33,453 nucleotides of DNA from Anaerolineales bacterium (GTDB lineage: Bacteria > Chloroflexota > Anaerolineae > Anaerolineales > Villigracilaceae): the NCBI GenBank assembly GCA_022865905.1, contig JALHUM010000328.1, forward strand, positions 1 through 33,453, read 5' to 3'. Below, one piece after another: positions 18,307-31,076 of the stretch. The position numbers and the translations under genes were made by a program. Each line of letters starts with the position of its first letter. Positions within the stretch are counted from its first letter, which is position 1. The notes beneath the pieces are model-generated. The model did not search any database. It saw nothing but the letters and a program-made list of their open reading frames with translations, and was not told where the DNA came from.

Positions 18307-18333
18307 AGGGGGGAGGAAAGCGCTGGAAATCAA

Positions 18334-18390
18334 AAGTGCCCCCATGGAGATTCGAATAGCATCCCCGTACGGGGGCTCCAGCTTTAGCCT
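18334..18390 (-). repeat. Partial tRNA-Glu copy A with hairpin inserted in the T-loop
   Basis: The sequence matches the 3' half of tRNA-Glu (acceptor 3' strand, T-arm, then CTCCAGCTTTAGCCT) and includes AAGTG as in copy 2's 3' flank. In the middle of the T-loop, right after TTCGAA on the plus strand, it carries about 19 bp with a CCCCGTACGGGG palindrome. Confidence 0.75.
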
Positions 18391-18426
18391 CGGGTACTCG
18401 GAGAGTATGAAAAGGCTGGCAATTAT

Positions 18427-18480
18427 AAGTGCCCCCATGGAGATTCGGATAACATCCCCTCAATGGGGGCTCCAGTTTTA
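18427..18480 (-). repeat. Partial tRNA-Glu copy B with hairpin inserted in the T-loop
   Basis: Same architecture as copy A: AAGTGCCCCCATGGAGATTC, then about 22 bp containing ATCCCC...GGGGG, then CTCCAGTTTTA. Homology ends earlier and it is more diverged than copy A. It lies 93 bp from A and 90 bp from the intact tRNA. Confidence 0.72.
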
Positions 18481-18516
18481 TCGCAAAAGACCACCCGGTG
18501 GGATGGCCTTGTGAAG

Positions 18517-18589
18517 TGCCCCCATGGAGATTCGAACTCCAGCTTTAGCCTTGAAAGGGCTGCGTCCTGGTCCACTAGACGATGGGGGC
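18517..18589 (-). tRNA. tRNA-Glu (TTC), copy 2, likely functional
   Basis: The minus strand folds as a complete tRNA-Glu: acceptor GCCCCCA/TGGGGGC fully paired, anticodon loop CTTTCAA (TTC), T-arm TGGAG-TTCGAAT-CTCCA, no encoded CCA, discriminator A. The anticodon stem has one C-A at its outer pair. A strong promoter lies directly upstream (18605-18633). It differs from copy 1 by a single acceptor base. Confidence 0.93.
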
Positions 18590-22765: not shown

Positions 22766-23757
22766 GTTTCTGCAAGCTCCTCCCCATAGACGAATAAATC
22801 GTTGATGGATTGCCGCTTGTAATTGCGGAGAATCGCTTCGCCGAAGACCGCTCCGATCGAAAGAACGTGTAGTTTCGGGTGGCGCTTTTCGGGTGGGATG
22901 TATACCGTATCCGTGGTCACGATTTCGGTGATCTGCGGGACGGCGGCCAGTCGCTCCAGACCTCCGTGCACAAAGACGCCGTGCGTGCAGGCCACCCAAA
23001 TTTCCTGGATGCCTTGCTCGATCATAATCCGGCTGAGTTCGAGGATGGAACCGCCCGTAGCGATCTCGTCGTCGTAGATCAGGGCGCAGCGGTAACCCTG
23101 GATCGGGTGGCCGACCAGGCCGCTGATAACCACTTCTATATCTGACACGCGTTCCTTGTTCCCCGCCGCGACGGGAATGCCCAGGCTCTTGGCAAAACGA
23201 GCCGCCGACTTGGCATGTCCCATGTCCGGCGCGACCACGATTGTGCCGGTCAGGTCATGTCCCTCGAAATGTTGATGAAAGACCGGGCGGCTGGTCAGGG
23301 GGTCAGCAGGGATGTTGAAGAAGCCGTGCACCTGCGGCGAATGCAGCATCATGGTCATCACGTGGGTCGCGCCGGCCGTCTCCAGCAGATCGGCGACCAG
23401 CCGGGCAGTGATCGAGATGCGCGGCGCGTCTTTCTTATCCGAGCGGGCGAAGGAGAAATAGGGGATGATGGCGTGTACTTCCTTCGCCGAGGCTGAACGG
23501 GCGATGTCCAGCATCATCAGCAGTTCCACAAGATTGTCGTTCACGGGCGGGGTGAGCGACTGGACGATGAAAACGATGCGCGAGCGTACGCTGGTGCCGA
23601 GCTGGATGTACAGGTTGTCGTTGCTGAAGCGCGTGATGAGGGTCTTGTCGAGCGGCAATCCCAAGTAGTCGGCGATGTCGCCAGCCAGCTTAGGATGAGA
23701 ACTGCCGCTGAAAAAGCGGACTTCTTCCGGGTCGAGACCTTTTACTGGCATAATCAT
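22762..23757 (-). CDS. prs: Ribose-phosphate pyrophosphokinase
   Basis: The protein is 331 aa from ATG 23757, which overlaps the upstream stop by one base (TGATG) and has AGGAA at 8 nt; ATG 23763 and 23751 are alternatives. It makes PRPP from ribose 5-phosphate and ATP. Visible motifs: PYFSFARSDKK (99-109), ITARLVADLLETAGA (116-130), HSPQVHGFFNIP (139-150), the catalytic-loop basic pair in NKERVSD (200-206), and the PRPP-binding loop IYDDEIATGGSI (227-238). It is somewhat divergent from E. coli Prs (SGSSHPKLA start, KER in place of KRR). It feeds nucleotide, histidine and tryptophan synthesis. It sits between the ICMT-like gene and the C_GCAxxG_C_C gene, overlapping both. Confidence 0.9.
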   Translation of the reverse strand: MIMPVKGLDPEEVRFFSGSSHPKLAGDIADYLGLPLDKTLITRFSNDNLYIQLGTSVRSRIVFIVQSLTPPVNDNLVELLMMLDIARSASAKEVHAIIPYFSFARSDKKDAPRISITARLVADLLETAGATHVMTMMLHSPQVHGFFNIPADPLTSRPVFHQHFEGHDLTGTIVVAPDMGHAKSAARFAKSLGIPVAAGNKERVSDIEVVISGLVGHPIQGYRCALIYDDEIATGGSILELSRIMIEQGIQEIWVACTHGVFVHGGLERLAAVPQITEIVTTDTVYIPPEKRHPKLHVLSIGAVFGEAILRNYKRQSINDLFVYGEELAET

Positions 23758-24452
23758 CACCATATTCCTGGCAGGAGCCGGTAACGGACGCGGGCGGCGT
23801 AATCCTTGTAACCTTCCAGTTCGTTTTGCAGCGTGCGATCCTCCAATGCCGTGCGGACAAACAGGTTGACCACCAGTAGTGCCATCGGGATGCAGGCCCA
23901 CAGCGAACCGAGGGCGATTGGGATGGTGATGTACGAAACCAGCAGGCTGGCATATCCGGGATGGCGGACGAAGCGGTACGGTCCACCGGTCTGGACGGTA
24001 TGGCCGCGCTCCTTTTGAATGCGGACGATAGTGGAGAAAAACTTGTTCGAAGCCATTGCCCAGGTGAAGAGAGGGTAACTCAACCCCAGCAGGACAAAAG
24101 CGGTAATCTGAACCTCGATCCTGATCCCGCCCGGCCAGCCGAAACGTTCATCCAGCCCGGCCAGGATGAGGATGAAAAGCCCGCCGAAGGCGCCGATACC
24201 GCCGATGACTTTGTCCCAGCCTTTGGCCCCCTCACCGATCTGCGAGCGTTCTTCCACTAGCTCTTTATGATGCGGCAGGAGGACGAAAACATTGAAGATC
24301 AGGAATGCCAAGTACTCACCCAGATACGCCCAGGCATTCCACCAGTCCCATTTCCAGACGGAGGCGAACAGGGCTATGGCCTGGAGCAGGACGAGGAACC
24401 CGATTTGAACAAGACGTTTGCGGATGGCAGGAGTTATTTCAGAATTCTCCAT
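23757..24452 (-). CDS. ICMT-like membrane methyltransferase
   Basis: This 231 aa protein with four to five hydrophobic helices ends in the signature of isoprenylcysteine carboxyl methyltransferase/PEMT proteins: GPYRFVRHPGYASLL (binds SAM), then a helix and EDRTLQNELEGYKDYAARVRYRLLPGIW. Bacterial members methylate small lipophilic or protein-bound carboxylates; the substrate is unknown here. The first 25 residues (TPAIRKRLVQIGFLVLLQAI) almost repeat the N-terminus of the neighbouring esterase. The stop overlaps the prs start. Its placement next to radical SAM genes is of note but may be chance. Confidence 0.85.
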   Translation of the reverse strand: MENSEITPAIRKRLVQIGFLVLLQAIALFASVWKWDWWNAWAYLGEYLAFLIFNVFVLLPHHKELVEERSQIGEGAKGWDKVIGGIGAFGGLFILILAGLDERFGWPGGIRIEVQITAFVLLGLSYPLFTWAMASNKFFSTIVRIQKERGHTVQTGGPYRFVRHPGYASLLVSYITIPIALGSLWACIPMALLVVNLFVRTALEDRTLQNELEGYKDYAARVRYRLLPGIW

Positions 24453-25454: not shown

Positions 25455-26603
25455 TTATTGCTTATAAATCATCTCCCACGGGTCTTTTAGGAAATTTCCT
25501 AGGATCTTATCCGCCTTGCCTTGCGCCGGGAGCACGTCACCATCCGGCTCGACGTAGAGCCAGGCCTTGCCCGCGCCATCTATAACGCTGTCCTCGGCGG
25601 TCTCGTGCGCCACCGGGTTATCGGCAGAGTAAGGAACCGGCAGATCGAATTTGACCGAGAGGCCCAATTCGGCGGCGCGCTGGCGCAGCCTGGCGAGATC
25701 ATCTTTGAGGGAAGCATCGGAGGCGCTCAAGGAGAGGCTCTTGACTTCCAGTTTTGCCAGTCTTTCGAGGATACTCCTCCCCTTCTTGACGTTCTGCGGC
25801 GTGACGGTCAAATGCACGGTGGTGAACAGGTCTTTGGGTATGATCGTCTCCAGCGCCTTCCAGGAGGCCTCGTTCTCGGGCTGGAGGATGAAGAGCAGGT
25901 GGTCAAGCCCGGTTTGGAGCAGTAATTGGAGGTATTTCTTATCGGTCAGTTTAAGCCCGTCCGAAAGCAGGCCACAGACCTGACCGTTCTTCTCAGCGTG
26001 GGCTATCAGCGCGGGCAGATCCTCGCGCAGGGTCGGCTCGCCGCCGGTAAAGATGACGTGTGGAATGCCGGCTGTCCATGCTTTGTCCATGATGGTCTGC
26101 CATTCCTCGGTGGTCAACTCGCGGTCGACGCGCTTGGTGGGGGCGTATTCGGCCTGGGTCGCGGCGGGCAGGCGATAGGTCAGGGCGCAGTCGAGGCGCA
26201 GGGGGGCAGTCAGGGCTTGCGAATGCGGCGCGACCCGCTCGAAGTCGAGGTACGTGACCGGGTCGAGGTCCGGGGTGTGGATCATGGTGCGAATGCGTTC
26301 CGTAAAATCCAAGAAATCCTGTTTGGCCGTCGCCCGGCTGACGCGATAACGCCTGGCGAGCTGATTGACAGCCTCGTCGGGGGCCGTGCCCTTGATCATG
26401 TGATAGGCGTACTCGGCTGCGGTCGGATTGAGGTGCAAGACAGTCGCCGCGTTGACGATCAAAATGCCGGAGCCATCCGGCTGCATACGCAGATGCAGCC
26501 GGTAGGCGGGTTCGTCAGGTTGGGATTGGTAATGGTGCGTGCCGGCCGGCAGCGGTTGGGTGCGGGTGAATTGTTCGCGCAGGAAATTGATAATGGAAGA
26601 CAT
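25455..26603 (-). CDS. Radical-SAM-like protein lacking all Fe-S cysteines (pseudoenzyme)
   Basis: This 382 aa paralogue of the enzyme at 27502-28887 has a PqqD-like domain at about 35-108 (VLHLNPTAAEYAYHMIKG, then YRVSRATAKQDF) and a radical SAM barrel from 135 onward with TGGEPTLREDLP (186-197). At the position of CxxxCxxC it has Leu145, Thr149 and Glu152 (YRLPAATQAEYA), and the SPASM cysteines are absent; only Cys139 and Cys210 remain in the whole protein. The C-terminal VEPDGDVLPAQGKADKILGN is kept in form. It cannot hold the [4Fe-4S] cluster, so it is probably a substrate-recognition or scaffold subunit. The frame is intact, arguing against simple decay. Confidence 0.88.
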   Translation of the reverse strand: MSSIINFLREQFTRTQPLPAGTHHYQSQPDEPAYRLHLRMQPDGSGILIVNAATVLHLNPTAAEYAYHMIKGTAPDEAVNQLARRYRVSRATAKQDFLDFTERIRTMIHTPDLDPVTYLDFERVAPHSQALTAPLRLDCALTYRLPAATQAEYAPTKRVDRELTTEEWQTIMDKAWTAGIPHVIFTGGEPTLREDLPALIAHAEKNGQVCGLLSDGLKLTDKKYLQLLLQTGLDHLLFILQPENEASWKALETIIPKDLFTTVHLTVTPQNVKKGRSILERLAKLEVKSLSLSASDASLKDDLARLRQRAAELGLSVKFDLPVPYSADNPVAHETAEDSVIDGAGKAWLYVEPDGDVLPAQGKADKILGNFLKDPWEMIYKQ

Positions 26604-26648
26604 AGGTGCTCCTTTTCCGATTTACGATTTCGGATTTACGAGTGATGA

Positions 26649-26996
26649 TTATTCGCGGATAAAGTTCGGCATTTCAAAGGGGATTTCAATGGATAGCTCG
26701 ACAAAACCGGTATAGACGCCATCCTTATACCAGGGCGTCTGGTAGATTAGTTTCTTCTTGCCTTTCTTTTCGATGGTGTACACGTTTTTCTGCTGCCTGT
26801 CCAACATGCGTTCCAGTTGACTGCGGGCGGGTTCGGGATGGCAGTCGAGCACGTTCTTGCCGATGAGACCGCGCCCGCCATCCTCGGCGAATGTCCCGGC
26901 CGCCTTGTCGTTCATCTCTAGGATGATGCCATTTAGATCGCAGACGGTGATGGCAGCGGGGAATTCCTTGACCCAGGAGCTATCGTTAGCATTCAT
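26649..26996 (-). CDS. Small PAS-fold protein, DCHPEP type (copy 2)
   Basis: This 115 aa protein starts at ATG 26996, with AGGAAAAGG upstream; a GTG at 27002 is less likely. It is a single PAS-like domain: ITVCDLNGIILEMNDKA opens the fold, GKNVLDCHPEPAR (47-59) is a characteristic loop and helix, and YKDGVYTGFVELSIEIP closes it. Its Cys52/His53 in DCHPEP could bind a metal, haem or cluster, or be redox active. It shares about half its residues with the neighbour at 27089. There is no output domain, so it should act through a partner, presumably one of the radical SAM proteins on either side. Confidence 0.8.
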   Translation of the reverse strand: MNANDSSWVKEFPAAITVCDLNGIILEMNDKAAGTFAEDGGRGLIGKNVLDCHPEPARSQLERMLDRQQKNVYTIEKKGKKKLIYQTPWYKDGVYTGFVELSIEIPFEMPNFIRE

Positions 26997-27017
26997 AATC
27001 ACCTTTTCCTGATAAAT

Positions 27018-27068
27018 GTAGTGGCGACTTTAGTCGCTTCTTAGCCGAACGACTGAAGTCGTTACTAC
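27018..27068. repeat. Palindromic repeat between the two PAS genes
   Basis: GTAGTGGCGACTTTAGTCGC (27018-27037) and CGACTGAAGTCGTTACTAC (27050-27068) form a long imperfect stem; most mismatches are G-U compatible. Each arm also contains its own smaller palindrome (CGACTTTAGTCG, CGACTGAAGTCG). It looks like a dispersed REP-like element and could terminate or stabilise the transcript. Confidence 0.65.
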
Positions 27069-27088
27069 GTTTTAGTGATTTACTGAGG

Positions 27089-27436
27089 CTACTTGCGCAT
27101 GTAATGTGGCATTTCTTCCGGTACTTCAAAGGAGATTTCGACGAACCCGGCGTATTGTCCTTCCTTATACCAGGGAGCCTGATAGAAGAAGCGTTTCGCG
27201 CCATTTTCGGTGTTGTAGTAGGCATTCGAGAGATGTTTAGCCATCATGCCTTCAAGTTTGGCGCGTGAGGGTTCGGGGTGGCAGTCGAGCACATTCGAGC
27301 CAAGCAGGCCGCGCCCGCCGTCCACCGCGAAGAGCGACTCGGCCTCAGCATTCATTTCGAGGATGACGCAGTCCGCGCCACAGACCATGATCTCAGCGGG
27401 AAGTTCTTTGGCCCAGGAGTGGTGTGGATCGGTCAT
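27089..27436 (-). CDS. Small PAS-fold protein, DCHPEP type (copy 1)
   Basis: This 115 aa protein starts at ATG 27436 (GGAGAG just upstream; the longer frame to 27469 lacks support). The layout matches copy 2: IMVCGADCVILEMNAEAESL, then LGSNVLDCHPEPSRAKLEGMM (46-66), FYQAPWYKEGQYAGFVEISF and a C-terminal PHYMRK. An extra Cys23 is present. PAS proteins with CHPxP loops occur next to haem or redox sensors, but no function is known for this type. It lies 65 bp after the radical SAM gene, suggesting a shared transcript and a sensing or electron-transfer role for that enzyme. Confidence 0.8.
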   Translation of the reverse strand: MTDPHHSWAKELPAEIMVCGADCVILEMNAEAESLFAVDGGRGLLGSNVLDCHPEPSRAKLEGMMAKHLSNAYYNTENGAKRFFYQAPWYKEGQYAGFVEISFEVPEEMPHYMRK

Positions 27437-27501
27437 GGACTCTCCAAAACGGAAATGGGTAACGAGCAATAAGTGCCGAGTGACGGGAAATGAATGTCAG
27501 G

Positions 27502-28887
27502 TCAACTCGGTACTTGTTTTTTATTACTCGGAAACTGCAGCGGGCAGCCACCGCCGCACTCGGCCAGCAGGAGACAGCCGCTGCATTTTTCGGGTAATCC
27601 TTTCCGCTCGCGAAGCTTGATTGCCAGTTCATGATTCCAGATGGTATCCCACTCATCCGTGAGCAGGTTGCCCAGTTGGTGATAATACGACTGACAGGGA
27701 AGCACGCCGCCATCCGGCTCGACGCACATGTTGTAAAGAGCAGCGGTGCAGCCCTTCACGCCCAAATCCAGCGATATCGGATCGAAGCCGCAGTATTGCG
27801 TCGGCGTGTACCAAATCAGGTGCTGGTTGTGCGCTTCGGTCTTGGCGCGGGCGATTTTCAACAGCGGCGTCAGTTCGCGCTCCGGCAGGCCAGTACCAAC
27901 TTTGGCGCCGCGGCCGGAGTAGATCAACGCATTCAGGCCGACTGTCGGGACGCCAAGCTCGCCCAGGAAATCGAGGGTAGCTGGCAGCGTGGAGAAGTTG
28001 TCCCGCAGCATGGTCGTGTTGGTCATCACGTACAACGGACTGGCGAGAACGTTGCGAATGCCTTTGACCGTCTGCTGGAAAGCGCCTTTGGCGCGCACCA
28101 TCCGGTCGTGGATTACGGGGTCGTGCGATTCGAGCGTGATCTGCACGTGGTCAAGTCCGGCCTCAATCAATTTCTCCACGTAGCGCGAGTCCGAGAGGCG
28201 GCGGGCGTTGGTGTTCAGGCCGGTGATCTGCCCGTTGCGCTCGGCGCGGGCAATGAGTTCGGGCAGATCGTCGCGCAGGGTCGGCTCGCCGCCGGTGAAG
28301 ATGATGTGCGGGATGCCAAGCTCCCAGGCTTTGTCGAGGACGCACTTCCAATCGTTGGTAGGGAGTTCGCCCGGACCTAACCCCCCGTTCCCCCCTTCCC
28401 TTGATGGGAAGGGGGGCGCAGGGGGGATAGGTCGCACATTATAGCAATGCGCGCAATCGTTGTTGCAGCGGTAGGTCAGCGCTAGGTCGAGGCGGTACGG
28501 CGCCGAGGGCCGCGCCGAGAACGGGGCGGTGACCTCTAATTCCAGGTCGTGGATCGGGCAGGCACCGTCGGGGCGAAGCAATTCAGAAATCTGCAGGCGG
28601 AAGGATAAAATATCTTCGTTTACTTGTTTCCTTGCTACTCGATATTTTTTTACTGTCGTTATGCCAATTTCATCATCCTGCTTGCCTTCTAGTATCATCC
28701 AAGCCATCAACGCCGCGGTCGGGTTCAAGTGCATGATGCGGTTGGCGTTGACGATCAGCGTGCCGTGCCCATCCGCGTCGAGGCGCAGATGGACGCGGCT
28801 CTTCTCGTCACCGTCCTCGCGGCGGTAATGATACAAGCCAGGTTCGGGGTGCGGCGTGCGAGGAGCGGGCTTGAACAAGTTCATCAT
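27502..28887 (-). CDS. Radical SAM/SPASM protein with N-terminal PqqD-like domain
   Basis: This 461 aa protein has a PqqD-like peptide-recognition domain at about 33-103 (LIVNANRIMHLNPTAALMAWMILEGK). The radical SAM cluster cysteines are Cys141, Cys145 and Cys148 (YRCNNDCAHCYN), GGEP is at 199-202, and a SPASM-type C-terminal region has Cys380, 388, 398, 435, 438, 444 and 448 for auxiliary clusters. Enzymes of this build modify peptides or proteins (thioether or C-C crosslinks, as in PqqE, AlbA and CteB). Residues about 153-172 (IPPAPPFPSREGGNGGLGPG) are encoded by an inserted palindromic repeat, in frame, just after the cluster motif. The gene starts 39 bp after the stop of the Cys-tail membrane protein, its likely substrate. 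Confidence 0.9.
   Translation of the reverse strand: MMNLFKPAPRTPHPEPGLYHYRREDGDEKSRVHLRLDADGHGTLIVNANRIMHLNPTAALMAWMILEGKQDDEIGITTVKKYRVARKQVNEDILSFRLQISELLRPDGACPIHDLELEVTAPFSARPSAPYRLDLALTYRCNNDCAHCYNVRPIPPAPPFPSREGGNGGLGPGELPTNDWKCVLDKAWELGIPHIIFTGGEPTLRDDLPELIARAERNGQITGLNTNARRLSDSRYVEKLIEAGLDHVQITLESHDPVIHDRMVRAKGAFQQTVKGIRNVLASPLYVMTNTTMLRDNFSTLPATLDFLGELGVPTVGLNALIYSGRGAKVGTGLPERELTPLLKIARAKTEAHNQHLIWYTPTQYCGFDPISLDLGVKGCTAALYNMCVEPDGGVLPCQSYYHQLGNLLTDEWDTIWNHELAIKLRERKGLPEKCSGCLLLAECGGGCPLQFPSNKKQVPS
28376..28431. repeat. Palindromic repeat inside the radical SAM gene
   Basis: CCTAACCCCCCGTTCCCCCC and GGGGGGCGCAGGGGGGATAGG, with TTCCC/GGGAA next to the centre, form a 56 bp imperfect palindrome. 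It lies in the coding region between the cluster motif and the barrel and keeps the frame open; the paralogue at 25455 has no equivalent residues. Confidence 0.8.
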
Positions 28888-28926
28888 ATTACCTATAACT
28901 GGTCGCTGAATACTGATTACTGGCTA

Positions 28927-30588
28927 TTATCTTCCTCCCCCCGCACAGGCGCAGGCGCAACCGGCGCAGGCGCAGGCGCAGGCGCAGGCGCGGCCACCGC
29001 CACCGCCGCCACCCTTCCAACTGCTGCTGGAGGAGGTCTTTGGAACTGGGTTGGTGCGGTTGGTTACACCGGAGGTGAAGGCGCTCACGTCGCCGATGAT
29101 CTTGCTGGAGAAGTTTTGCACGCCGCCGACCACGGAGGCGGCGAATGTGGCGCCGGGCAGGGAGGATCGCCCGCCGGTTGCTGCTGGGGTAATCGAGCCT
29201 ACCTTGGGAGCGCCGGTCGTCACAGGCCGGAAGGTCGGGTCGTAGCGTCCCCACCACATCGGAATGAAGATCGGCCCGGTGAAGGCGCGCCGTGTGCGCT
29301 CGTCATAATCCTTGTCGAGCATGGTCCATTCCAGCGCCTCCTCGTACATCTGGCTCTTGACCTCGGGTGTGCCGGCCGCTTCGATCTGCTGCCAGGCGCG
29401 TTCCATGATGCTCTTGTAGTATGAAATCGATTCCTTTCGGCTGAATCCTTTCATCTTGTCGCCAACGGATTTGACCAGGTTGACGGTCATCTCTTGCAGG
29501 CCTTTCTTGGGTATATTGTTCGGGTCGCTGAAGGCCTTCAGGAAATCTTTTTCGTACTCGTGCAATCCTTCCGGCAGGGGTTGAACGACCTGCAACTTGA
29601 GCGGGTCGCGGGTGATGACCGAGGCGGCGTTCTTCTTGACCACGCTGAACAGGATCATGGTCATCACCTTGTCGAGCGGCTGTTCCATCAGGATGGCAGC
29701 TTCGACCGAGGTAAGGCCGCGTTTGACCCCGTGCCCTTCGATGGAGATTTTGGGCGGCAGGTATTGCATCTTGCGCCGCCGCCCATTGATCGCGCTCAAG
29801 AGCGGTACGCCGACGAAGAACAGGCCGCAGCAGGCGAAGAAGGCGAAAGAGGTGAGTGTATCCGCGCTGATGCCCAATTGCTCCCAAATCGAAGGTTGGA
29901 CAATCGCCGAAGCAGGCACATACTGCTTGGGAAAGGACATGCCGAACGTGTATTGGGTGTAGCCGTTGGCGTCCGCGCTGTGCCAGGTATAGGTAACGCG
30001 ATTCTGGTTGTCGTATGCCGCCTGGGGCGCATCGTTCCCCGGCCAGCCGCCGCTCGGATTGTGGTAACGCGGCTCACCTGGTTGCATGTCCGGCGGCAAA
30101 TGGAAGACAACTGTCAGGTCGGTTGCGCCGTGCGCCGTAGTCCAGTATGCTGGCGCGAATTCGCCGCTGGCGTATGTTTTTGGCTCGTTCGTGTCGTTGT
30201 AGAGCATGTTGGTGATTCGCCCTACAGCAACGTGGACGTGGCCCGTGTCTCCAGGGCGGATGGCATACGCGCCCATATCCACCGAAAACCCGTAAGGCCC
30301 ATCTCCCTGGAAGTCCGACGAAATGGACAGCGAATTACCGTCCACGTCAGCCGTGATGCTGCTGAAATCGTAATTGCTATTCGGCATACCCACGTCCACG
30401 AAGTCAATCACGTGTGCGCCAGGGTCATTGGTAAATACGAAGTAATAATCCAATGAAAGCGTGCCGTCGCTATTCCAGAATACGTGGACAATTTCCTGGT
30501 TGAGGTTGAAGGAATATTCCTGGGCGGCCGCGCTGGTTGTCGTTACCAGCAAGAGGACGGTGACGAGAAGAAAAATAATTCGTTTCAT
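28927..30588 (-). CDS. DUF2207-like membrane protein with C-terminal Ala-Cys repeat
   Basis: This 553 aa protein has a signal peptide at 1-22 (LLLVTTTSAAAQ). A beta-rich extracellular domain (23-240) resembles DUF2207 N-domains. One membrane helix lies at about 248-270 (FAFFACCGLFFVGVPLL), then a helical cytosolic part (about 290-450) and a Ser/Gly-rich linker. The last 21 residues begin RACACACAC and end ACAGGGR: seven cysteines (535, 537, 539, 541, 544, 546, 548) alternate with Ala after seven glycines. With one helix after a signal peptide the tail is cytosolic, within reach of the radical SAM enzyme encoded 39 bp downstream. At DNA level the tail is a run of six-base GCAGGC-type repeats (28936-28998). 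The ATG has AGGAGG. The tail could alternatively bind metals. Confidence 0.8.
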   Translation of the reverse strand: MKRIIFLLVTVLLLVTTTSAAAQEYSFNLNQEIVHVFWNSDGTLSLDYYFVFTNDPGAHVIDFVDVGMPNSNYDFSSITADVDGNSLSISSDFQGDGPYGFSVDMGAYAIRPGDTGHVHVAVGRITNMLYNDTNEPKTYASGEFAPAYWTTAHGATDLTVVFHLPPDMQPGEPRYHNPSGGWPGNDAPQAAYDNQNRVTYTWHSADANGYTQYTFGMSFPKQYVPASAIVQPSIWEQLGISADTLTSFAFFACCGLFFVGVPLLSAINGRRRKMQYLPPKISIEGHGVKRGLTSVEAAILMEQPLDKVMTMILFSVVKKNAASVITRDPLKLQVVQPLPEGLHEYEKDFLKAFSDPNNIPKKGLQEMTVNLVKSVGDKMKGFSRKESISYYKSIMERAWQQIEAAGTPEVKSQMYEEALEWTMLDKDYDERTRRAFTGPIFIPMWWGRYDPTFRPVTTGAPKVGSITPAATGGRSSLPGATFAASVVGGVQNFSSKIIGDVSAFTSGVTNRTNPVPKTSSSSSWKGGGGGGGRACACACACAGCACACAGGGR

Positions 30589-30680: not shown

Positions 30681-31076
30681 TTACCACTTCGGCTCTTCTG
30701 TCAGTTGATAGATCGTATTGCAATACGGGCAGGTGACCATCGGCGCGCCATTGACCAGTTTGATGTTGTCGGCGGTCAGCTCACCGCCGCAGGAACGGCA
30801 TTTCATGGCTTCGATCTTGGTCTCGCCGGGCAGATCAATTTTCAGGGTGACGTTCTGCGCGGTTTCCTGTTTTGTTTTGCGCGCGGCAAGAATGATCAAT
30901 GCGATCCCGCCTACGAGCGCGATAGCGCCAACGCACATTCCGGCACTTCCAACCTCTGTTACACCTTGTGCTCCGCCAGAAGCGCCAAGGAGAATAAAGC
31001 CTCCCACGCAAATGCCAGCAGCGGCCAGGAGAAGAAGAATTACTGCGCCGACATACATCCAGGTTGTAGGTTTCAT
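30681..31076 (-). CDS. Two-helix membrane protein with C-terminal zinc ribbon
   Basis: This 131 aa protein has two hydrophobic helices at about 7-31 and 44-65, then a basic turn (AARKTKQE), a short strand segment and a zinc ribbon: CRSCGGELTADNIKLV, then VTCPYCNTIYQL. Both termini are probably cytosolic. The ATG has GGAGG. The specific family is not recognised; the CxxC...CPYC module is common in proteins that bind nucleic acid or protein partners at the membrane. It precedes the DUF2207-like gene by 92 bp in the same orientation and may belong to the same membrane assembly. Confidence 0.75.
   Translation of the reverse strand: MKPTTWMYVGAVILLLLAAAGICVGGFILLGASGGAQGVTEVGSAGMCVGAIALVGGIALIILAARKTKQETAQNVTLKIDLPGETKIEAMKCRSCGGELTADNIKLVNGAPMVTCPYCNTIYQLTEEPKW

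Follow-up and report, generated by a model that had tools for sequence, protein, structure and literature searches.

Gene order and predicted topology of the tail protein

The window analyzed here is the whole 33,453-nt stretch of contig JALHUM010000328.1 from an Anaerolineales bacterium, and all coordinates are positions in it. Its minus strand carries a group of genes built around a membrane protein with a cysteine-alanine tail and a radical S-adenosylmethionine (SAM) enzyme that probably modifies this tail. In the order of transcription, the group consists of the genes for a small zinc-ribbon membrane protein, the tail protein (28927..30588), and, after a gap of 39 bp, the radical SAM enzyme (27502..28887), two PAS-like proteins and a second radical SAM protein devoid of cluster cysteines, called the twin below. 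The original prediction had described this one-strand layout correctly from the tail protein onward; the zinc-ribbon gene was absent from its list.

Analysis of the open reading frame, domain and topology predictions and a structural model divide the 553-residue tail protein into a signal peptide (residues 1-22), an extracytoplasmic beta domain (23-222), a transmembrane helix (about 242-274), a cytosolic helical domain (about 290-450) and a conserved helix (476-514), followed by a Gly linker and the tail. The predicted structure (mean predicted local distance difference test score, 82) places helices at 479-498 and 501-512 and leaves the tail disordered. The C terminus reads RACACACACAGCACACAGGGR, with GGRACACACACAGCACACAGGGR as its final residues. 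The tail proper, ACACACACAGCACACAGGGR, spans residues 534-553 (28930..28989, minus strand) and is followed by the stop codon at 28927-28929. As had been predicted, it contains seven cysteines (535, 537, 539, 541, 544, 546 and 548) separated by alanine, an alternation broken by one glycine.

The signal peptide, the single transmembrane helix and the positive charges directly after it support a predicted type I topology, with the N terminus outside and the tail facing the cytosol, in agreement with the earlier proposal of a tail on the cytosolic end of a surface protein. By its beta fold, the outer domain is similar to Ost1/ribophorin I and to the M1-aminopeptidase N-domain (Z 17.5, root mean square deviation [rmsd] 2.6, 183 residues). 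This fold is common and without functional meaning, and we discarded it as a guide to function. A search of the PDB by sequence gave no match to the tail protein.

Conservation of the tail and its linkage to the radical SAM enzyme

We scanned 249 genomes of the window's class with a DNA pattern for CACACAGG, allowing one mismatch. True tails, at the C terminus of long frames, were present in 30 of them, and in nearly all 30 a second copy of the motif directly preceded the first, although the pattern did not demand it. In a comparison of 39 diverse homologues, identity is 0.87 for the tail, 0.33 for the outer domain and 0.40 for the cytosolic domain; the part of the tail that lies outside the scan pattern (534-543) still reaches 0.76 in these 39 proteins. 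The tail is thus the most conserved part of the protein. Across 54 tails of types A and B (see below), collected with a pattern in which some tail positions are fixed, wobble positions vary freely while the amino acids are kept. A search by protein rather than by tail returned the same genomes, with homologues that also end in the tail, and the tail is therefore not an artifact of selecting for it. Synonymous drift, conservation beyond the scan pattern and frame context likewise ruled out a chance or low-complexity origin.

The presumed targets are membrane proteins of about 320 to 700 residues. No short precursor peptide was seen in this role: the window's protein and its homologues are alike throughout, and apparent stand-alone tail peptides in two genomes (G271 and G296) proved to be genes cut by contig ends.

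A blind scan for CACACAGGG, run on one genome per GTDB species, yielded at least 118 pieces and, among the matches listed, revealed the same tail in Clostridia, Krumholzibacteria, Asgard archaea, Bathyarchaeota and others. The tails fall into types: A/B tails end in ...CACACAGCACACAGGGR and type C tails in ...CAGCACACACAGGGR; archaeal forms contain CVS or end in GGGVG; type D, in Clostridia, reads CACACAGGGRAGCSxKDFY; and type E, in Krumholzibacteria and others, reads CACACVSCACACACAGGGGAGCSRK. The signal peptide, the outer domain and one transmembrane helix with positive charges on its inner side are common to the tail proteins of all types, with topology less sure for some type C proteins that have extra hydrophobic stretches. 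Type D loci (L075, L087, L216 and others, including that of the cultured Gemmiger formicilis) carry a conserved extension after the tail, AGCSxKDFYxTxL.

A strong orthologue of the radical SAM enzyme (at least 334 bits) was found in 30/30 tail genomes and in 4/219 other genomes of the class (Fisher's test, 1e-34, a value that overstates independence because the genomes are related; the pattern nonetheless recurs in distant phyla). In three of the four genomes without a tail (G006, G128 and G157), contig breaks lie near or inside the radical SAM gene; the fourth is G005. At the family level, the enzyme is encoded in 51 of 61 genomes, every one of which also encodes the tail protein. Of the other ten, two (65-66% complete) encode the tail protein without the enzyme, and eight lack both genes. 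Among the matches listed in the blind scan, 32 tails were flanked by 2 kb or more on either side, and for 30 of them the radical SAM gene was in the piece; genome-wide follow-up of 10 tail loci located it in the genome for 9. Chance matches were also followed in four genomes, none of which has the radical SAM gene.

Tail type also tracks enzyme clade. On a tree of the enzymes, quickly built and with some long branches, the tail types require 8 changes, where the minimum is 7 and shuffling gives a mean of 39.9. A deep search with the enzyme further led to a more distant, sister clade in the same class, which adjoins homologous membrane proteins with a (CHSA)n repeat; this type of tail, CHSACHSACVHDACHSAC...VSRF, was present in 7 of the 9 loci examined. 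The sister loci (L198-L204) often include a small zinc-ribbon membrane protein, and several of the genomes have a canonical DUF2207 gene at a distance of about 5 kb.

As controls, we recovered 27 complete frames of DUF2207 proteins from the same class, of which 26 had clear DUF2207 ends and one was a wrong frame. The 26 ends are Gly tails without any cysteine in the last 40 residues, and no radical SAM gene was found within the 2-4 kb fetched around the controls.

The linkage of the genes, the conservation of the tail and the agreement between tail type and enzyme clade were all established by comparison. From these we infer that the tail is probably the substrate of the radical SAM enzyme, as originally proposed, a proposal that also withstood our survey for tail proteins lacking radical SAM neighbors. 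Several observations weigh against it. G005 has no tail gene beside its radical SAM gene or elsewhere in the genome. Conversely, L147, a metagenome-assembled genome (MAG) of Clostridia, has a clear type D tail, and its genome yielded no relative of the enzyme (E up to 1e-20). In L145 the radical SAM gene lies elsewhere in the genome and not beside the tail, and in one family (f7) the two genes are on different contigs. The agreement between tail type and enzyme comes partly from host phylogeny. Moreover, linkage denotes a shared pathway and is not proof that the tail is the substrate. Finally, the tail could bind metal unmodified.

The last point leads to a different explanation, namely that the tail is an unmodified metal or redox thiol cluster, as in metallothioneins, and that the enzyme has its target in some other product of the locus (the zinc-ribbon protein, for instance) or works in a different branch of the pathway. 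(Cys-Ala)n could bind soft metals, and the small membrane protein with a C-terminal zinc ribbon (30681..31076, minus strand) is a conserved upstream neighbor: its gene occurs in 44 of 54 type A tail pieces, several of the misses falling at piece ends, and also with type C, in some archaea and with type H, and the ribbon motif is found inside 25 of 46 type D tail proteins. However, no zinc-ribbon protein was detected for type E and many other loci, which keep the tail and the enzyme. Metal binding alone would leave the near-invariant spacing and the GGGR end unexplained, the RRE of the enzyme (see below) resembles that of peptide maturases, and the sister clade goes with a different tail. We therefore regard an unmodified tail as improbable, and modification of the tail by the enzyme as the better account.

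The enzyme and its putative product

The radical SAM enzyme of the window (461 residues) was predicted to combine a radical SAM/SPASM architecture with a PqqD-like domain, and profile searches and a structural model bear this out. Its Radical_SAM (E = 3e-24) and SPASM (7.6e-10) domains are clear, and the cluster motif C141xxxC145xxC148 is invariant in 39 orthologues. The SPASM motif CX2CX5CX3C is present; the last canonical cysteine is absent in the window's clade and present in many relatives. The PqqD-like peptide recognition element (RRE; residues 17-103) scores 0.019 in the window's own protein, under the Pfam cut-off. It is matched by 28 of the 39 orthologues (best, 8e-8) and supported by the model, of which residues 19-457 align with SuiB, an RRE-radical SAM-SPASM maturase (Z 27.8, rmsd 3.4, 370 residues). 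The protein thus has the CxxxCxxC motif, the SPASM domain and the PqqD-like element that define RRE-containing radical SAM/SPASM peptide maturases, and we propose it as the maturase of the tail.

Directly after the CxxxCxxC loop, the window's enzyme has an in-frame insert of about 17 residues (PPAPPFPSREGGNGGLG; residues about 153-168, near 28385-28432). This insert is missing from most relatives, has a shorter counterpart in L148 and resembles a translated interspersed repeat. All listed NCBIfam radical SAM models score far below their cut-offs. A role in anti-phage defense was considered and rejected, as PADLOC matched the locus only through a generic viperin-type radical SAM model.

In the mechanism that we propose, the membrane protein would insert so that the N-terminal domain lies outside and the C-terminal half faces the cytosol. 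The RRE of the enzyme would then dock on a recognition segment, probably the helix 476-514 before the Gly linker. This segment, conserved at 0.54 within Chloroflexota versus 0.58 for the cytosolic domain, is the best candidate that we infer for RRE binding. The enzyme would next act along the tail with its (Cys-Ala)n repeat, most likely yielding a row of thioethers from cysteine sulfur to carbon, with the alanine C-alpha as the simplest acceptor. The twin, as a second RRE-bearing barrel, would probably present or hold the tail; a further probable partner is the zinc-ribbon membrane protein.

One locus bears on the helix in another way. In L053 (990-4409), beside a radical SAM gene, a protein resembling Ser/Thr kinases-ATPases carries an in-frame C-terminal fusion that comprises the last part of the cytosolic domain, the helix, the Gly linker and the tail. 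Such a fusion may make helix and tail a portable cassette; it comes from one contaminated MAG, is unconfirmed and might reflect misassembly.

The nature of the product is less certain than the identity of the substrate, and we hold the chances of a thioether to be about even. By fold, SuiB and SkfB come nearest to the enzyme, CteB follows closely, and viperins, BlsE and MoaA also score high; by sequence, PqqE and SkfB are among the nearest proteins. The fold does not decide the chemistry, because SkfB makes thioethers while SuiB and PqqE make C-C bonds. The tail might accordingly be a substrate that receives another modification, such as C-C cross-links, epimerization or desulfurization. The diversity of radical SAM/SPASM reactions speaks for this option, as do the top PDB sequence match, which is the C-C bond maker PqqE, and the high fold scores of viperins, BlsE and MoaA. 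Nevertheless, the Cys-dense targets of RRE-radical SAM-SPASM enzymes are usually thioether cross-linked, and Cys thioethers are the product of SkfB (PMC6231123), which together with SuiB is the best full-length match by fold. A precedent for a cysteine-alanine linkage exists in ruminococcin C1 (RumC), which has a Cys5-Ala12 thioether (PMC8172795). A product other than a thioether is a lesser, rather doubtful option, and thioether formation is the likelier reading. A further caution is that type D enzymes retain only part of the SPASM motif, so that the chemistry may differ between lineages, a point that also weighs against the proposed tail modification.

Partner genes and relation to known systems

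The twin (25455..26603, minus strand) has a PqqD domain (4.5e-6), a Radical_SAM barrel (4e-10) and only two cysteines. It has neither CxxxCxxC nor SPASM cysteines, confirming the earlier description of a paralogue without cluster cysteines. The same losses characterize all type A twins. In type C loci, the second enzyme has lost CxxxCxxC and kept the SPASM cysteines, and cluster-less twins therefore probably arose separately, at least twice. A non-catalytic partner in tail binding, as first suggested, finds weak support in the retained RRE and in this second twin elsewhere; the absence of twins from most lineages does not favor it as a general component. Alternatively, the twin might be a pseudogene in decay or might catalyze another reaction, with no part in tail modification. 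The loss of CxxxCxxC and SPASM cysteines, the lineages without twins and one twin that occurs without the enzyme or tail (in G192) would fit this. Against it, the frame is intact in 51 of the 61 family genomes at 56-84% identity, and in nearly all family genomes the presence or absence of the twin follows that of the system. Together with the type C twin, this makes decay or an unrelated activity unlikely, and we retain the twin as the proposed non-catalytic partner. The isolated twin (L206, on contig G192:C35) is conserved, lies beside leucine-type biosynthesis genes and belongs to a 97% complete genome without a strong radical SAM orthologue or a tail gene.

The two PAS-like proteins, encoded at 27089..27469 (the copy closer to the radical SAM gene) and 26649..27002 on the minus strand, both contain the DCHPEP loop noted before, and a PDB sequence search with the first gave no match. 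Their genes occur in 27 of the 61 family genomes, always in ones with the radical SAM gene and mostly between it and the twin by coordinates, and the related tail loci compared showed none beyond the window's lineage. They are thus optional accessories of one lineage, and a general role for them, in redox sensing or electron transfer as first proposed, was not supported. The zinc-ribbon protein, being the commoner neighbor and having its motif inside type D tail proteins, emerges as the better candidate partner. Neither a protease nor an exporter appeared among the conserved neighbors, which were compared mainly with the window's own proteins.

The tail protein reached the cut-off of no Pfam or NCBIfam model. 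It scores 13.7 bits with TIGR04222 (cut-off, 43), which weakly matches 9 of 39 relatives (best E, 4e-6). It gave no match to Pfam DUF2207 (PF09972/PF20990), no PF20990 match was found in its genome, and DUF2207_C matched 1 of the 39 relatives (E = 0.0028). Hence, of the label "DUF2207-like" originally given to it, a distant relation stands and a Pfam match in the protein itself does not. DUF2207 proteins share its layout of signal peptide, outer domain, transmembrane segment, cytosolic part and Gly-rich end, with a weak relation at the profile level. Their Gly tails are free of cysteine, they have no adjacent radical SAM gene in this class, and the sequence relation is weak.

We found nothing on the pair of tail and radical SAM enzyme in openly licensed PMC papers, among which only the one on MNIO and TIGR04222 comes close. 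It proposes TIGR04222 membrane proteins with Cys-rich ends as substrates of MNIO (DUF692) enzymes (PMC12452194). In both cases a membrane protein with a C-terminal, Cys-rich, low-complexity tail adjoins a peptide-modifying enzyme, and the cytosolic domain of our protein is distantly related to TIGR04222. In contrast, the enzyme here is a radical SAM/SPASM protein with an RRE and a different chemistry from that of MNIO; the tail is of fixed form, (CA)n with GGGR at the end, and is predicted to be cytosolic, whereas theirs are predicted to be periplasmic; and the association is far tighter, as a third of their TIGR04222 genomes have no MNIO. The scaffolds of the two systems are distantly related; the enzyme and the predicted topology differ.

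The maturases SkfB, SuiB and CteB resemble our enzyme in architecture, in fold and in having their target encoded beside them. They differ in that their target is a short secreted peptide, whereas here it would be the C-terminal tail of a membrane protein, with no protease or exporter seen among the conserved neighbors compared and with cross-links that are putative. QhpD offers a precedent for the size of the target, as this radical SAM/SPASM enzyme acts on a large protein, modifying cysteines of QhpC, which is ribosomally made and not a small natural product (PMC8172795). QhpC is an enzyme subunit with Cys-to-Asp/Glu links, unlike the disordered repeat tail on a membrane protein found here. 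Our enzyme also has a weak score with TIGR04340 (1.8e-13, 50 bits against a cut-off of 400). That model belongs to the ACGX system, in which a radical SAM/SPASM enzyme is tied to Ala-Cys repeats; its targets are separate peptides.

Most of what is known about radical SAM maturases comes from small secreted peptides, and the comparison points to a previously undescribed modification of the inner end of membrane proteins. The system ranges from gut Clostridia (including the cultured G. formicilis) and Anaerolineae (including the cultured Ornatilinea apprima) to Asgard archaea. On balance we lean slightly toward an old, widespread bacterial and archaeal system in which RRE-bearing radical SAM/SPASM enzymes would rewrite cytosolic Cys-repeat tails of type I membrane proteins. 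These tails would follow clade-specific codes (CACACAGGGR, CACACVSCACACAGGG, CACACAGGGRAGCS and (CHSA)n), with separately derived cluster-less twins in at least two lineages, and the modified tail would function within the membrane protein and never be released. Its breadth suggests a housekeeping role, perhaps in metal or redox handling, which is our guess from the cysteines and the zinc ribbons. The simple tail makes the proposal directly testable by mass spectrometry, and recurrent cluster-less twins would give a handle on the function of pseudo-radical SAM proteins.

Two further features of the window lie outside the gene group. A membrane protein resembling isoprenylcysteine methyltransferases (ICMT) is encoded near the operon (23757-24452); this gene and a flanking esterase gene were considered as members of the system and rejected, as they had no matches in the related tail loci searched. 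At 18316-18534, a 34-nt repeat with the core AAGTGCCCCCATGGAGATTCG occurs in three copies about 90 bases apart.

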